Assembly: GCF_014931565.1 (NCBI RefSeq)
Contig: NZ_CP063353.1
Location: 1,426,001-1,490,000 of the forward strand
Direction: 5' to 3'
Origin: Clostridium sp. 'deep sea'
GTDB taxonomy: Bacteria; Bacillota; UBA994; PWPR01
DNA length: 64,000 bases
Every line of letters starts with the position of its first letter. The stretch's first letter is position 1. The notes beneath the pieces were generated by a model. It ran no database searches, had not been told where the DNA came from, and saw only the letters and a list, made by a program, of their open reading frames with translations. Positions 12,272 through 48,776 of this stretch are shown one piece after another. The position numbers were made by a program, and so were the translations under genes.

Positions 12272-13582
12272 TTAATATTTTACCTTAAATACAGTTTGCT
12301 CTTTAACATCAGCTGTTAAAGCATCTAGGGCTACCCCTACTCTATGATAGCGTAATTTCCATTGCTCTTCTTTACTGGTAGATGGATCACCTAATGGATA
12401 AGGTATAGAAATAGTTGGTACCATTTTGTTGGCGCCTACAGTTTTTGCAACTGGAATAAGGTTAGCCATTTGCACAACTGGAATACCTGCTTTTTCAATC
12501 TCTTTAACAATCGTTGCACCGCAACGTGTACAGGTTCCTCAAGTAGAAGATAGAACTACTGCGTCCACACCTTCATTTACAAAGTATTCAACCATTTCTT
12601 GACCCATACGAGCTGCCTCAGCCTGGGTTGTGCCAGTACCTACAGTAGAATAAAAATATTCATGTAGTTTGCCAATTTTGCCTTCTTTTTCATAGGCTCT
12701 TAAAGCATCTATAGGTACACATACATTTGGATTAGCATCTGCTGCAGCTGGGTCATAACCAGCGTGAATAGTTTTAAATACTCCACCCTCTAAACGATCC
12801 ATATCTTTTATGCTATAACGTCCCCATCTTGTTGCAGATGCAGATTGAATACGATCTGGATTAGCTACTGGCACAATACCACCAGAAGTAGCAAAAGCAA
12901 TAGTAGCTTTACTTAAATCTTTAATAGGTGCAGCAATTTCTACTTTATCTAGCGCAGGAATTGGCAATTCACTGACAAAATCTTCGCCTCTTAGCTTTTT
13001 AATTAACATACTAACAACGCGCTCAGAAGCAGGAACTTTATCCTCTCTCCAAACTTGGTGACGAATACCACGACCAAAGTATCCTTCGGTATCGGCATCA
13101 AATAACTCTTCGTTATTAAACATTTTGTTAGCGTAATCAGCAATAACCTTAATATTTTTACGCATTGCTGCAGCACTTCTGCCACCCTTAAAAATAATCA
13201 TGTCTTTTCTAAACATTTCTACGCCAGGGTTTTCTTCATGCATAGAAGTTAATACTGGTACATTAAATTTCTCTTGAACAGCTTTACAGATAACACCACA
13301 GGCATTACCATAACGTCCAGCCTGAAAAGCAGGACCAGCTAAAAATATATCAAATTCCTTATCAGCTAAAAAACCTAAAATTTGTTCTACTGCATCAGCT
13401 TCATTAGAACCCATATAGTTATCACCGCAAATTACGGTATGTGTTACCTCTGCATTGAGTTGTTTATTATACTCCATAGCAGGGCCAACTAAACCTTCTC
13501 TAATTACAGGTGCAAAATCAGCTTTATCTTCTCCACCAATTTGACCAAAGAATTGATTTAAATAAACAATTGCTTTTTTCAC
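12272..13582 (-). CDS. grdH: Betaine/glycine/sarcosine reductase component B gamma subunit, selenoprotein
   Basis: Read through the in-frame UGA at 12539-12541, the product is 436 residues, the standard length for GrdB/GrdF/GrdH. Selenocysteine is residue 348 in a U-G-T-C-T-R-C motif, matching the family's UxxCxxC active site. The reading frame continues 88 codons beyond the UGA with conserved GIPVVQMANLIPVAKTVGANKMVPT. Known role: with the pyruvoyl alpha/beta subunit it binds the substrate amine and transfers a carboxymethyl group to the selenol of protein A. The BCCT neighbour favours betaine (GrdH), but GrdB/GrdF cannot be excluded. The start is GTG after AGGGGGG. GrdA, GrdC and GrdD are not in the window. 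Confidence 0.9.
12512..12541 (-). promoter_or_regulatory. Candidate bacterial SECIS hairpin at the UGA codon
   Basis: Directly after the UGA (minus strand) a hairpin CGTTGC-ggt-GCAACG (12512-12526) begins 12 bases downstream, within the distance expected for a bacterial selenocysteine insertion element bound by SelB. The short apical loop contains the G-U pair often seen in such elements. Confidence 0.65.
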
Positions 13583-25738: not shown

Positions 25739-26983
25739 ATGAGCTACAAATACATTAACGGATACTTTGCTGCTACAGCTTGTATACGAAGTATTTTATC
25801 AAATAAAAACTACTTTGTTCCCAAACAAAACAGCACCTACAGCGAAAATTTGCTTTTTGGTATAGCTGGTGGCATAGGTATTGGTTATATTCTATGGAAC
25901 TATAAATCTAAAAATCGCAAACAATTATCTTTACATTTTCATAATCATTGGGGCAAAGAAATAAGAACAATGACTGAGTTAAGCAAAAGAATTGGTTTAG
26001 ATATAAATATTACAGAAACAACAAGCTCACGTAAGGCCTATAATAACCTTAGGGTTACTTTAGATAAAGGCGAAAATATTATAGTGTGGGTGGATCGTAA
26101 CAAATTGCCTTATAATTTTGAGCCCCTAGATAAATACGAAAAAACACCGCATCCTATAGTTATTACAGACTTTAATAAAGAAACTAACATAGTAACAGTA
26201 GATGATTTAGCTAAGGGTGGTTTTGAGTTAACCATGGACGAACTTAAAATTGCTCGCAGAAATATACCATCACTAAAAAACTGCTCTATGCAAATTAAAG
26301 GTTATAAACCAATAGAACTATTATCTAAGGCAGTTGTGCAAGGTATTGACGATTTTATAGAAAAAATAAGTACCACCTCTCAGTCTTTTTCTTTACCAGC
26401 CTTAAAAAAATGGGCTAAGCTTTTAGCATCACCCGCCAATAAAAAAAGCTGGTCAATTGTATTTGCAGATAATACTGACTTATTTACAACCCTAGCAAAA
26501 GTATATGAAAATACAACTTTATATTGTAAAGATGGTCATGGATTAAGATATATGTATGCTGATTTTTTAGATGAAGCTAGCTTATTGTTAAATATAACTA
26601 TCTTAAAAGAGATAGCCACGGTTTACAGAAAAGCTGGAGACCTCTGGGCTAAGTTTGCCAATACCTCATTTCCAGATACCGTAGCTCAGTTTAAACAAAC
26701 AAAGCAATTATTAATACAAAAACATAAAGCCTTAAATGAACTAGGTGAGGCTTCACATACAACCCTTAAAACATCATCAAAACAAATACAAGAGTTATAC
26801 AAAGAGTGTGCTAATAAATTTCCTTTAACTCGTAAACAAAAAATGGATTTATTCAACGAAATGGCGGTGGGCTTAATGGAGATTTATCAAGTTGAACTAA
26901 ATGCTGCTAACTTATTATTTAATACAATTAACGAAACAACCGTACAAGCATTTAGAGCTGAGTCAGTAGTAGCTGGAGTGTAA
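25739..26983 (+). CDS. BtrH N-terminal domain / DUF4872 protein
   Basis: 414 residues. The first ~190 residues resemble the papain-like BtrH_N domain: ACIRSIL with Cys15, FGIAGGIGIGYI, later IIVWVDRNKLPYNFEPL and HPIVITDFNKETNIVTVDDLAKGG (the usual His and Asp region). Residues ~200-400 match the helical DUF4872 domain. In butirosin biosynthesis BtrH transfers an acyl group from a carrier protein; here no carrier gene is near, so the substrate is unknown. The start has AAGGAG upstream. A second protein with a related fold is fused to AraC at 54017-55531. Confidence 0.75.
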   Translation: MSYKYINGYFAATACIRSILSNKNYFVPKQNSTYSENLLFGIAGGIGIGYILWNYKSKNRKQLSLHFHNHWGKEIRTMTELSKRIGLDINITETTSSRKAYNNLRVTLDKGENIIVWVDRNKLPYNFEPLDKYEKTPHPIVITDFNKETNIVTVDDLAKGGFELTMDELKIARRNIPSLKNCSMQIKGYKPIELLSKAVVQGIDDFIEKISTTSQSFSLPALKKWAKLLASPANKKSWSIVFADNTDLFTTLAKVYENTTLYCKDGHGLRYMYADFLDEASLLLNITILKEIATVYRKAGDLWAKFANTSFPDTVAQFKQTKQLLIQKHKALNELGEASHTTLKTSSKQIQELYKECANKFPLTRKQKMDLFNEMAVGLMEIYQVELNAANLLFNTINETTVQAFRAESVVAGV

Positions 26984-27013
26984 ATGTAGGTTTGGATTTA
27001 TAGGATTAAGGTA

Positions 27014-27817
27014 GGGAATCACCTCTGTGTGATTCCACTGTGGATACTTAGTCAACTCGTTTTAATCATTGTAACTTCCTGTTTATTTTTGTTTTATTTA
27101 TTGCGCAGCAACTGAACGGCACAGAGGCGCGTTCACTACTTTTAAACCATAAACATCAAACACTCTATGCTAATTAGTAGGAAATCACCTCTGTGTGATT
27201 CCACTGTGGATACCTTAGCCAACGCGTGTTTTAATTATTGTTAATTTACTGTTTATTTTTGGTTTTTATTTAATGCCCAGCAACTGAACAGCACAGAGGC
27301 GCGTTCACTACTTTTAAACCATAAACATCAAACACTCAATGCTAATTAGTAGGGAATCACCTCTGTGTGATTCCACTGTGGATACCTTAGCCAACGTGTG
27401 TTTTAAGCATTGCTACTTACTGTTTATTTCTGGTCTTTATTTAATGCGCAGCAACTGAACAGCACAGAGGCGCGTTTACTACTTTTAAACCATAAACATC
27501 AAACACTCTATGTTAATTAGTAGGGAATCACCTCTGTGTGATTCCACTGTGGATACTTAGTCAACGTGTTTTAATCATTGTTACTTACTGTTTATTTCTG
27601 GTTTTTATCTATTGCCCAGCGACTGAACGGCACAGAGGCGCATTCACTACTTTTAAACCATAAACATCAAACACTCAATGCTAATTAGTAGGAAATCACC
27701 TCTGTGTGATTCCACTGTGGATACCTTAGCGCGTGTTTTAATCATTGTTACTTACTGTTTATTTTTGATCTTTATTTAATGCGCAGCAACTGAACGGCAC
27801 AGAGGTGCGTTCACTAC
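27014..27817. repeat. Five tandem ~170-bp repeats with nested complementary arms
   Basis: Units start at 27014, 27180, 27352, 27523 and 27691 (lengths 166, 172, 171, 168 and a partial of ~127). Each begins with a hairpin GGAATCAC-ctctgt-GTGATTCC, and ends with GAACGGCACAGAGGCGCGTTC. The arm CCTCTGTG at the start can pair with CACAGAGG ~100 bases later, so each unit can fold as one long hairpin. Units differ by scattered changes. There is no open frame of note. The last unit runs into the stop of the following gene. Confidence 0.9.
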
Positions 27818-28954
27818 CTAATCCCTAGGTGGTCTAGGTCCGTAAAACTGATAATAATCAACCTTAATTCTACCATTGTACAGCTTACGTTTACGGTCTG
27901 CGTTTTTATTTATTACTTTTTCTAAGGTTGGGTCTGCGGTTAATATATAAAAAGACCAAGTTTTATTGCTCCAAAATAGTCTTTTTAGGTGTTCATCTAT
28001 TAGTAACAAATCTTCATCCGAGCCAATTCTTTCGCCGTAAGGCGGATTTGTTATTAAAACACCATATTCATCTGTAAAGTCTAAATCTTTTATGTCTTTT
28101 ACTTCAAAACAAATATCGTCTTCAACACCAGCTTCTATAGCGTTTTCTTTGGCTAACATTATCATACGTTCATCAAAATCTGTTGCTCGTATATCTAGCT
28201 TTACATCATGTTTTATATTAGAGTATGCCTCTTTACGGGCTGATGCCCAAATTTCTTTATTTATTACACCCCAAGCTTCTGCTGCAAATTTTCTATCTAA
28301 ACCAGGGGCAATATTACGAGCTAACATAGCTGCTTCAATAACAATTGTACCAGAGCCACACATGGGGTCTACTAATAATCGATCTTTATTCCAATAGCTT
28401 AACATTAACATACCAGCACAAAGAGTCTCTTTTAGGGGCGCTTCACCTGCCACTAATCTGTAGCCACGTTTATGTAAGCCTGCTCCACTTGTATCTAAAG
28501 TTATGGTAGCAACATCTTTCTCTAACGCCACCTCTATTACATATTCCGGGCCATTCTCTGGAAAGTATGTTTCATTAAGAGTCTCTTTTAAACTCTCTAT
28601 AATAGCCTTTTTAACAATTGCTTGACAGCTAGGAACATTATGCAGCTTAGATTTTAACGATTTGCCTTTTACAATAAACTTACCATTAGCAACTAAATAT
28701 TTTTTCCACTGTACTGCTTTAGTGCCCTGAAATAAATCCTCAAATGTTTTGGCTTTAAATTGCTTACAAAGTATTGTAACCCTTTCAGCAGTTCTTAAGT
28801 TAATATTAGTTTTTGCAATATCTTCAACACCTGCCTCTATGGTTATTCTACCATTTTCGGTGTTTAAAACTTGGTAACCCATAGCTTTCAATTCGCGTTT
28901 AGCAATTGCCTCTATACCAAACTCTGTTTTAATTAACAGCTTTATCTTATTCAT
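27818..28954 (-). CDS. THUMP-domain class I RNA methyltransferase (RlmL/YpsC type)
   Basis: 378 residues, the normal size for the Firmicute YpsC-like 23S rRNA methyltransferase. The N-terminal ~160 residues form a THUMP-type RNA-binding domain (LKAMGYQVLNTENGRITIE); the Rossmann part has DPMCGSGTIVIEAAMLARN, and the catalytic TNPPYGERIG. Known role: N2-guanosine methylation in 23S rRNA, using S-adenosylmethionine. The start has GGAGCG upstream. Its stop codon abuts the tandem repeats. Confidence 0.93.
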   Translation of the reverse strand: MNKIKLLIKTEFGIEAIAKRELKAMGYQVLNTENGRITIEAGVEDIAKTNINLRTAERVTILCKQFKAKTFEDLFQGTKAVQWKKYLVANGKFIVKGKSLKSKLHNVPSCQAIVKKAIIESLKETLNETYFPENGPEYVIEVALEKDVATITLDTSGAGLHKRGYRLVAGEAPLKETLCAGMLMLSYWNKDRLLVDPMCGSGTIVIEAAMLARNIAPGLDRKFAAEAWGVINKEIWASARKEAYSNIKHDVKLDIRATDFDERMIMLAKENAIEAGVEDDICFEVKDIKDLDFTDEYGVLITNPPYGERIGSDEDLLLIDEHLKRLFWSNKTWSFYILTADPTLEKVINKNADRKRKLYNGRIKVDYYQFYGPRPPRD

Positions 28955-33465: not shown

Positions 33466-33651
33466 TTAAAATGGTGATCTTGACAAGGTTCACACCTCTT
33501 CAATAACCCAAAAAAACTAAGTAGATAGAATTTTTTTAGTACATGGTGGTAATTCAAACAGGAAAACTAAGGGGAAAATTTACTACCTATATTATTAGAT
33601 TTTACATAAAACTATTGAGATTTACTAAGCAAAACGGTAACTATTTGTAGG

Positions 33652-35335: not shown

Positions 35336-35549
35336 ACACGAAGAGAAGATTGTTTTAATATGGTTTTGCTTTTTAAAATGTGAACTTAATATTGTAAGTA
35401 TATTTTTCGTGATTCTAAGCTTTGAGGTTTAAACATGAGAATTACAGGGTTAAAACATAAGTTTTTTGATTAACCGCTAAGAACGCTAAGAATACGAAGA
35501 TAAAGATTGGTTTATTTTGGGGTTTTTATATTTAAAATGTTGGTTAGTA
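35336..35549. repeat. Host dispersed repeat flanking the IS110 copies
   Basis: No gene. Contains AACGCTAAGGACACGAAGAGAAGATTG directly after copy 1 (in pieces of under 20 bases: AACGCTAAGGACACG, AAGAGAAGATTG) and, at about 35460-35510, an uninterrupted relative GATTAACCGCTAAGAACGC followed by TAAGAATACGAAG. Similar runs lie at 33660-33829, 36400-36536 and 38031-38060. The IS110 copies appear to have inserted into copies of this repeat. Confidence 0.6.
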
Positions 35550-35940
35550 GTTCAACTACTATCTAAAATGATACAGTCTGAGAGAATCACTATACCTCCC
35601 ATTTGTCGCGATAGATTTACCATCTAATATGACACAATACTAAAACAATGCGGCCTCGATCTTTTCCTTACCTAGTGTTCAATTACCATCTAAAATGACA
35701 CAATACTAAAACCTCCTGTTATCGTTGCGCCCGTTATTGCTTGTTCAATTACCATCTAAAATGACACAATACTAAAACAACGATGGCTGCTCAACTGATG
35801 ATGATTCGGTTCAATTACCATCTAAAATGACACAATACTAAAACTAACCACATGCCTTTACCATGCCACCCTAAGTTCAATTACCATCTAAAATGACACA
35901 ATACTAAAACAGAGCGAACCTGCAATTCGAGCGTGTATTC
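35550..35940 (-). CRISPR. Orphan type II CRISPR array (degenerate left end)
   Basis: Repeats of 36 bases in a 66-base register with 30-base spacers: R1 35611-35646, R2 35677-35712, R3 35743-35778, R4 35809-35844, R5 35875-35910. R2-R5 are identical, beginning GTTCAATTACC and ending ACAATACTAAAAC on the plus strand. R1 differs in its left quarter; a badly decayed R0 lies at 35550-35585. In crRNA sense (minus strand) the repeat starts GTTTTAGTATTGTG, the hallmark of type II repeats. The last spacer (35911-35940) is followed in register by the tracrRNA anti-repeat. Decay at the left marks the trailer end, fitting minus-strand transcription. No cas gene is present. Spacers are distinct and not assigned. 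Confidence 0.9.
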
Positions 35941-36054
35941 GTTCAATTACCATCTAAAATGACACAAAGTGTTAAAATAAAGGTTTACTTAATCGCCATT
36001 TTAATGGTCGCCCTATAGAGGGCTAAATCACAAAATTTATTTTGTGATTTTTTT
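35941..36054 (+). ncRNA. tracrRNA fused in register to the CRISPR array
   Basis: Plus strand. Bases 35941-35967 equal the first 27 bases of the array repeat, so they pair perfectly with 27 bases of crRNA repeat. Then AGTGT (35968-35972, bulge), TAAAAT (35973-35978) which pairs with crRNA GUUUUA as in SpCas9 guides, AAAGG, a CCATT-tt-AATGG hairpin (35996-36007), GCCCT-atag-AGGGC (36010-36023), and a terminator AAATCACAAAA/TTTTGTGATTT (36025-36050) with T-run. This is the standard anti-repeat, bulge, lower stem, nexus, hairpin, terminator order. There is no clear own promoter; upstream is array sequence. Confidence 0.8.
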
Positions 36055-47987: not shown

Positions 47988-48776
47988 TTGTGTAGTTCAT
48001 GTAATGCACCTATAGGTATTTTTGATTCTGGTGTAGGTGGAATTAGTGTACTTTGCACAGCAACTAAGCTTATGCCTAATGAAGATTTTATTTACTATGC
48101 CGACAACGCTTTTGCACCTTATGGTACGCAAACTGTGCAGGCTGTTAAAGATCATTCTTTTAGGGTAGCTAATTGGCTTCTTAACAAGGGTGTTAAAGCT
48201 ATTGTGGTAGCTTGTAATACTGCTACTAGTGCTGCTATAAAGGATTTACGTGATTCTTTTACTATTCCTATCATTGGTATGGAACCAGCACTTAAACCTG
48301 CTATAGAGAAACATGGCAGTAAAAAAATAATTGTTTTGGCAACACCCATGACTCTGGCAAATAAAAAATTTAATTTGCTTATGAATAGGTATGGAAAAAA
48401 CAAAGATATTGTTTCGTTACCAGCCCCAAAGCTTGTGGAAATGATTGAAAGTGGCAATTTTAACAATACTGTTATGCAAAATTACTTAAAGCATAAGTTT
48501 AATGATTATTTAAATTTGACATCTGCTATTGTTTTAGGTTGTACTCATTTTTTATATATTGCAAATATGTTACAAAAGCTTGTAGGCAAAAATGTTGTTT
48601 TAGTTGATGGAAATATTGGCACAATACGCCAACTAGCTAACACCCTGGCAAGAAACAATCTTTTAAATAAGCATGGTGGAAATATTAAAATTTGGTCATC
48701 TGGTGATGATTTAACTCTTAAGTTATGTAATAAGCTCTATGAGTATGGTAAAAATAATTTAAGATTTTATGAATAA
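47988..48776 (+). CDS. murI: Glutamate racemase
   Basis: 262 residues from the TTG at 47988 (GAGGTG six bases upstream; the GTG at 47979 lies inside that site). Catalytic pair: VVACNTATSA and VLGCTHFLYI, with the N-terminal IGIFDSGVGGISVL. Converts L- to D-glutamate for peptidoglycan. The gene is bracketed with its downstream neighbour by repeat blocks D and E, in opposite orientation to each other. Confidence 0.95.
   Translation: MCSSCNAPIGIFDSGVGGISVLCTATKLMPNEDFIYYADNAFAPYGTQTVQAVKDHSFRVANWLLNKGVKAIVVACNTATSAAIKDLRDSFTIPIIGMEPALKPAIEKHGSKKIIVLATPMTLANKKFNLLMNRYGKNKDIVSLPAPKLVEMIESGNFNNTVMQNYLKHKFNDYLNLTSAIVLGCTHFLYIANMLQKLVGKNVVLVDGNIGTIRQLANTLARNNLLNKHGGNIKIWSSGDDLTLKLCNKLYEYGKNNLRFYE

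Follow-up and report, generated by a model that had tools for sequence, protein, structure and literature searches.

Tandem inverted GTAG hairpins in Clostridium sp. 'deep sea', very probably an array of the BIME/REPIN kind

Introduction

In Clostridium sp. 'deep sea', where the stops of two convergent genes face each other, one hairpin-bearing sequence is repeated five times in tandem, which raises the question of what kind of element this is and how it came to be there. We studied it in a window of 64,000 nucleotides (contig NZ_CP063353.1, positions 1,426,001 to 1,490,000), the whole stretch of DNA that was analysed, and in the genome around it. A first-pass annotation of the window had described five tandem repeats of about 170 bp, built as nested hairpins that can fold locally or over a long range, and had suggested a genome search for other copies and a covariation test of the paired arms; it made no mention of GTAG tags, of the inverted relationship between the two hairpins of a unit, or of a genome-wide family. 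Our analysis leads us to regard the array, with high confidence, as a BIME/REPIN in tandem copies: a non-autonomous mobile element, amplified in place and probably moved by a RAYT-type Y1 HuH transposase.

Results

Anatomy of the array

At 27011-27817 Tandem Repeats Finder (TRF) reports a single array, with a score of 1304, a period of 168 bp repeated 4.8 times and 90% matches, in agreement with the five units of 166-172 bp, whose starts are 166, 172, 171 and 168 bp apart; the number and near-equal lengths of the repeats are thus as first described. The end at 27817 also stands, and the true start lies 3 bp before the 27014 given earlier. Each unit opens with a hairpin on the plus strand, R1 (n = 5), in which GTAG is followed by an 8-bp stem, GGAATCAC/GTGATTCC, and the six-base loop CTCTGT; the stem has one mismatch in two of the five copies. 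Each unit is closed by R2, which reads GTAG-first on the minus strand and continues as TGAACG(C)GC/GCCGTTCA, with one bulged base and the same loop as R1. A unit is therefore an inverted R1/R2 pair with its unpaired GTAG tags outermost; the gap from R1 to R2 is 76-82 bp and the linker from unit to unit is 37 bp. The features are as follows.

27011-27817, no strand: the complete array, in which five REP pairs, each an R1 followed by an inverted R2, stand in tandem; from copy spacing, TRF and hairpin listing
27011-27036, plus strand: R1 of unit 1 (GTAG and hairpin), 8 of 8 pairs
27113-27139, minus strand: R2 of unit 1 (GTAG and bulged hairpin), from hairpin listing
27140-27176, no strand: 37-bp linker between units 1 and 2, from unit comparison
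27177-27202, plus strand: R1 of unit 2, 7 of 8 pairs
27285-27311, minus strand: R2 of unit 2, from hairpin listing
27312-27348, no strand: 37-bp linker between units 2 and 3, from unit comparison
27349-27374, plus strand: R1 of unit 3, 8 of 8 pairs
27456-27482, minus strand: R2 of unit 3, from hairpin listing
27483-27519, no strand: 37-bp linker between units 3 and 4, from unit comparison
27520-27545, plus strand: R1 of unit 4, 8 of 8 pairs
27624-27650, minus strand: R2 of unit 4, from hairpin listing
27651-27687, no strand: 37-bp linker between units 4 and 5, from unit comparison
27688-27713, plus strand: R1 of unit 5, 7 of 8 pairs
27791-27817, minus strand: R2 of unit 5, its GTAG abutting the stop codon of the next gene, from hairpin listing
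25739-26983, plus strand: upstream convergent gene with BtrH_N and DUF4872 domains (context only), from ORF and domain matches
27818-28954, minus strand: convergent gene on the downstream side, for an RlmL-like THUMP methyltransferase (given for context), from ORF and domain matches

The last base of the array directly abuts the stop codon of the 27818-28954 gene, as had been noted, and no ORF of at least 80 aa lies inside the array, in keeping with its description as non-coding. Nothing points to a special role for either neighbouring gene. The short hairpin of the earlier description is real; the loop assigned to it, CCTCTGTG, takes in the closing C-G pair, and the loop proper is CTCTGT. The complementary CACAGAGG near the end of each unit is the loop of R2.

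A CRISPR array, which needs identical short repeats and unique spacers that hardly vary in length, was rejected, as it had been from the start: the stretches between the hairpins are themselves repeated copies, the R1-to-R2 spacers being 87% and the 37-bp linkers 97% identical within the array. Elsewhere in the window, at 35549-35976, seven 37-bp repeats, the outer ones degenerate, recur every 61-66 bp and are separated by dissimilar stretches of about 29 bp; from its sequence this looks like a small CRISPR array, and it lies between two IS110-family transposase genes that are each split over two ORFs.

A genome-wide hairpin family

A DNA search of the organism's own genome (3.83 Mb, one contig) found the sequence in 36 places, comprising other arrays and many single copies. 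We built a covariance model on 29 hairpins: one from locus L045 and, with a chance row excluded, 28 of the 50 in our listing. It gave 88 matches at E ≤ 10 in the same genome; the seven weakest were dropped. The 81 sites kept fall into 46 clusters under a 300-bp rule, and further arrays lie at about 775.4, 1498.8, 1536.5 and 3299.2 kb, so that the proposed search for other copies yields four arrays besides that of the window. Inverted R1/R2 pairs stand in tandem, as in BIMEs and REPINs, in the window array and at L021, L022, L023 and L033. An exact scan of named genomes, in whose scope the organism's own or very near genomes may not fall, returned no stretch with the hairpin. One window unit had no match in a phage or in a plasmid collection, and by that result a phage or plasmid origin was ruled out.

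Almost all copies lie between genes. Of the 81 hairpins, 79 are outside ATG-initiated ORFs of at least 100 aa, against a baseline in which 78% of window 26-mers overlap such an ORF. Both neighbours are defined for 42 clusters, of which convergent ORFs flank 17, co-directed ORFs 20 and divergent ORFs 5, and the four arrays for which this holds all sit between convergent ORFs. This siting, together with roles in supercoiling, termination and mRNA stabilisation that the available text of PMC3733652 records as proposed for REPs, would suit a family that the host has taken over as 3'-end, gyrase-binding or terminator sites and that is kept by selection and not by movement. We judge such a reading unlikely, since convergent intergenic sites are also where insertions do least harm and the family has 0 matches in a genome of the same genus (G001). 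A search for terminators found none in the array and one elsewhere in the scanned stretch, against 0.7 in shuffles.

Hairpin structure and covariation

Folded as single-stranded DNA, R1 has an energy of -6.5 kcal/mol (z -4.4), and none of 200 shuffles is as good. Eighty hairpins of the genome could be decomposed into their parts. GTAG stands directly at the foot in 79 of them, where a GTAG REP calls for an unpaired GTAG or GTGG no more than 2 nt away; 78 have an 8-bp stem and a loop of 5-6 nt, inside the limits for a short palindrome (stem of about 5-13 bp, loop of 2-20), and 78 form at least seven of the eight pairs, with 29 distinct stems among them. The share of paired stems and the constancy of the loop are biased upwards, because the search model favours pairing and a CTCTGT loop; the kinds of compensatory change are less affected.

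These changes are considerable. Both sides of the stem vary together at pairs 1, 5, 6 and 7, with (in 78 hairpins) GC 43 and TA 33 at pair 1, TA 45 and CG 30 at pair 5, CG 32, GC 31, AT 7 and TA 2 at pair 6, and AT 56 and GC 20 at pair 7. In the training alignment of 28 distinct rows, 39 cells are changed on both sides; shuffles average 14.8, none of the 500 reaches 39, and slid controls give at most 7 cells. The paired arms therefore pass the covariation test that the first-pass annotation had suggested, and as their stems covary so strongly the R1 and R2 hairpins present in every unit, its nested hairpins, are real structures.

The proposal of alternate folds fares differently. A structured RNA, or a regulatory element of the two neighbouring genes, might switch between the local and the long hairpin; window units can form both folds, and of the two whole units folded as single-stranded DNA one took the local form and one the long. 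CCTCTGTG can indeed pair with CACAGAGG, and it does so because R1 and R2 are inverted relatives, the pairing being an automatic product of two such hairpins. In 13 dimers from five arrays the eight-base core of this long-range pairing is complete in nine (three of them by way of a G-T pair); in the other four, from L022 and L023, where the R1 loop is CTCAGT and the R2 loop CTCTGT, it breaks to 7 of 8 with an A-A mismatch that nothing compensates. The two whole-unit folds (z -0.8 and -1.3) are no better than shuffles. A selected switch thus finds no backing in the core pairing, and the hairpin is common to 46 genome clusters, is absent from the orthologous locus of G001, has no Rfam match at the array and is accompanied by no terminator-like site within it. 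We consider an RNA switch very improbable. A riboswitch or other known RNA was rejected on the Rfam search: at gathering score the window has only tRNA and SECIS_4 matches and the array none. The SECIS_4 match lies at 12501-12538 on the minus strand, and a selenoprotein gene is therefore likely nearby.

Origin of the array

G001, the single same-genus genome compared, also has the BtrH-like and RlmL-like genes (the latter 66% identical) in convergent orientation; their frames overlap by a few bases and nothing lies between them, which constitutes an empty site. At E ≤ 0.01 the covariance model has no match in this genome or in another 13 from the same family or class; in a sample of 398 genomes of the phylum it has matches in 4, one of them the organism's own. 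Compared with three other arrays, the spacers and linkers of the window array score near shuffled values; given their likeness within the array, it most likely grew in place, as its sequence suggests, from one pair and 37 bp.

RAYT-type transposases

A Pfam Y1_Tnp search of the genome gave 13 matches at E ≤ 10, with several IS200-like Y1 proteins. Three intact small genes are of RAYT type: RAYT-A at 48150, RAYT-B at 3814194 and RAYT-C at 3232042, all with what we take to be the HuH and C-terminal tyrosine motifs. The three match the NCBIfam model REP_Tyr_transpos weakly (60.7-67 bits), and RAYT candidates as a whole score 60.7-73 bits, below its cut-off of 80. Each of the three has GTAG hairpins of its own family around or inside it: a tandem run of 102-bp units (10.2 copies), built of inverted GTAG pairs, comes after RAYT-B, and RAYT-A (gene 1501-2061 of locus L124) carries REP hairpins within its own open reading frame. 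The matches to RAYT-A at L131, L137 and L138 span only or mainly this REP-bearing middle of the protein and so, going by the aligned ranges, may be REP pairs instead of gene remnants. The genome also encodes five longer Y1 proteins (L042, L043, L044, L046 and L047; stop-to-stop frames of 271-319 aa), and the C-terminal part of the first has a DnaA-like match. Near these five genes no strong GTAG hairpins were found.

Relatives of RAYT-A occur in 22 of 398 genomes of the phylum, the organism's own included. At least two GTAG hairpins accompany 21 of the 25 RAYT loci scanned, where each of three block shuffles gives at most 0.7, some of these counts being one palindrome scored on both strands. 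At five of the 25 (L172, L178, L183, L188 and L192) the loops are close to CTCTGT, the loop having been no part of the query. One of them, L188 in genome G069, has its RAYT gene inside a tandem array with a period of 176-182 bp and about 16 periods over the locus. The R1 of this array is GTAGGGGTTGAC-CTCTGT-GTCAACCC, and of the last 22 bases of its inverted R2, 18 by eye match those of the window, bulge included. Whole units of the two arrays align with a score of 17.0 against a shuffle maximum of 6.5, an excess for which the hairpins alone account; the spacers are not homologous (-3.5 against -4.1 ± 3.5).

A RAYT flanked by hairpins of the same loop, the arrangement of a REPtron, is thus found in G069 and not in the organism's own genome, where the Pfam Y1_Tnp search, searches with the RAYT-A and G069 RAYT proteins and hairpin scans of the loci showed no CTCTGT-loop hairpin beside any RAYT-type gene. 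The family therefore seems to be an orphan here, and its mobiliser is inferred. Similar hairpins in G029 and G145 do not lie by the Y1 genes found there, and no RAYT with such flanks was found in these two genomes. We put forward as a tentative and somewhat doubtful idea that the hairpins form a REP class across distant Bacillota, whose RAYT would read the GTAG foot and the near-constant loop CTCNGT while leaving the stem free as long as it pairs, and that in this genome the class is an orphan served in trans by the RAYTs of other families.

Two Y1 genes lie nearest to the CTCTGT family. A plain IS200-type transposase adjoins the array at 1498.6 kb, and a Y1 ORF of 158 aa is separated from a single R2 by 844 bp and two ORFs. 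With the inverted ends on each unit, the former could suggest that the hairpins bound an element of IS200/IS605 or MITE-like type with no relation to RAYTs; the IS200-type gene lies beside only one of the 46 clusters, and the GTAG foot, the tandem inverted pairs and the single hairpins fit REPs, so that we give this origin scarcely any credence.

Other REP families stand beside IS110-type genes in the window, with GTAG hairpins at 33647 (plus strand), 33745 (minus) and 38120 (minus). At L113 (G000:C1:3606000-3618000) two near-identical transposase genes, presumably IS110-type and one of them split over two ORFs, are enclosed by REPs whose loop is CTCTGT or CTTGT; insertion of IS110-type elements in REPs has been described for ISPpu9.

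Discussion

The BIME/REPIN reading is drawn from the tag, the hairpins, their inverted pairing, dispersal and intergenic siting, the empty site in a relative and the likeness within the array, and from RAYT genes set in like arrays in this and other genomes. In the model that we propose, a pair of inverted GTAG-tagged REP hairpins would have inserted between two convergent genes and been amplified there together with 37 bp of linker. The family is probably moved by a RAYT-type transposase: a Y1 HuH enzyme of this type (TnpA-REP) would recognise the GTAG hairpin in single-stranded form, cut near it and move the pair as single-stranded DNA.

The array is otherwise ordinary for its kind, but it extends tandem REPIN arrays, along with several RAYT families, to a lineage of the Bacillota where little has been described. 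Its natural variants, with 29 stems, a near-constant foot and loop, and bulged and unbulged partners, could show what a RAYT reads in the hairpin, and with a numerous REP family that has no neighbouring transposase one can ask whether a RAYT also acts on the elements of another.

Our literature search, partial in coverage and confined to papers apart from their supplements, found none describing RAYT or GTAG REP arrays in Firmicutes, Clostridia or Bacillota. The genomes scanned in PMC12306157 include three Bacillota, and its available text contains one occurrence of GTAG and none of RAYT. The GTAG super-family was defined with 24 families by Di Nocera et al. 2013 (PMC3733652), in whose main text 'firmicutes' and 'clostridi' do not occur, so that this host group seems to be uncovered there. 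Quentin et al. 2018 (PMC6006769) distinguish, in the text available, five RAYT subclasses with flanking REPs, of which subclass 2.4 has REPs inside its genes; the REP inside RAYT-A's own gene corresponds to this mark of TnpA-Y1 subclass 2.4, and the 6-nt loop found here exceeds by one the 2-5 that the short-hairpin rule given there allows.

In the SBW25 strain of Pseudomonas fluorescens, the consulted text of PMC3116915 describes ordered clusters of near-identical tandem REPINs that include flanking sequence. Our array resembles these in its two inverted REPs with a spacer and in its tandem clustering with flanking sequence, and REPIN-type clusters adjoining RAYT genes are a further likeness; it differs in hairpin sequence, in its Bacillota host, in having fewer copies and in lacking a cognate RAYT beside the family here. 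With the BIMEs and TnpA-REP of E. coli, as presented in the accessible part of PMC8266576, it shares the GTAG foot, the inverted REP and iREP, the tandem copies and an irregularity of the stem; unlike them, it has a perfect R1 stem and, in R2, a one-base bulge in place of an AA/GC mismatch, and it is known from its sequence. The terminal unpaired GTAG, the 8-bp stem, the head-to-head dimers, the tandem groups with flanking DNA and the sub-families with compensatory stems are all features that the text of PMC3733652, as far as available, gives for the GTAG super-family, and compared with that description the CTCTGT hairpin family appears to be a new family within a kind of element already known.
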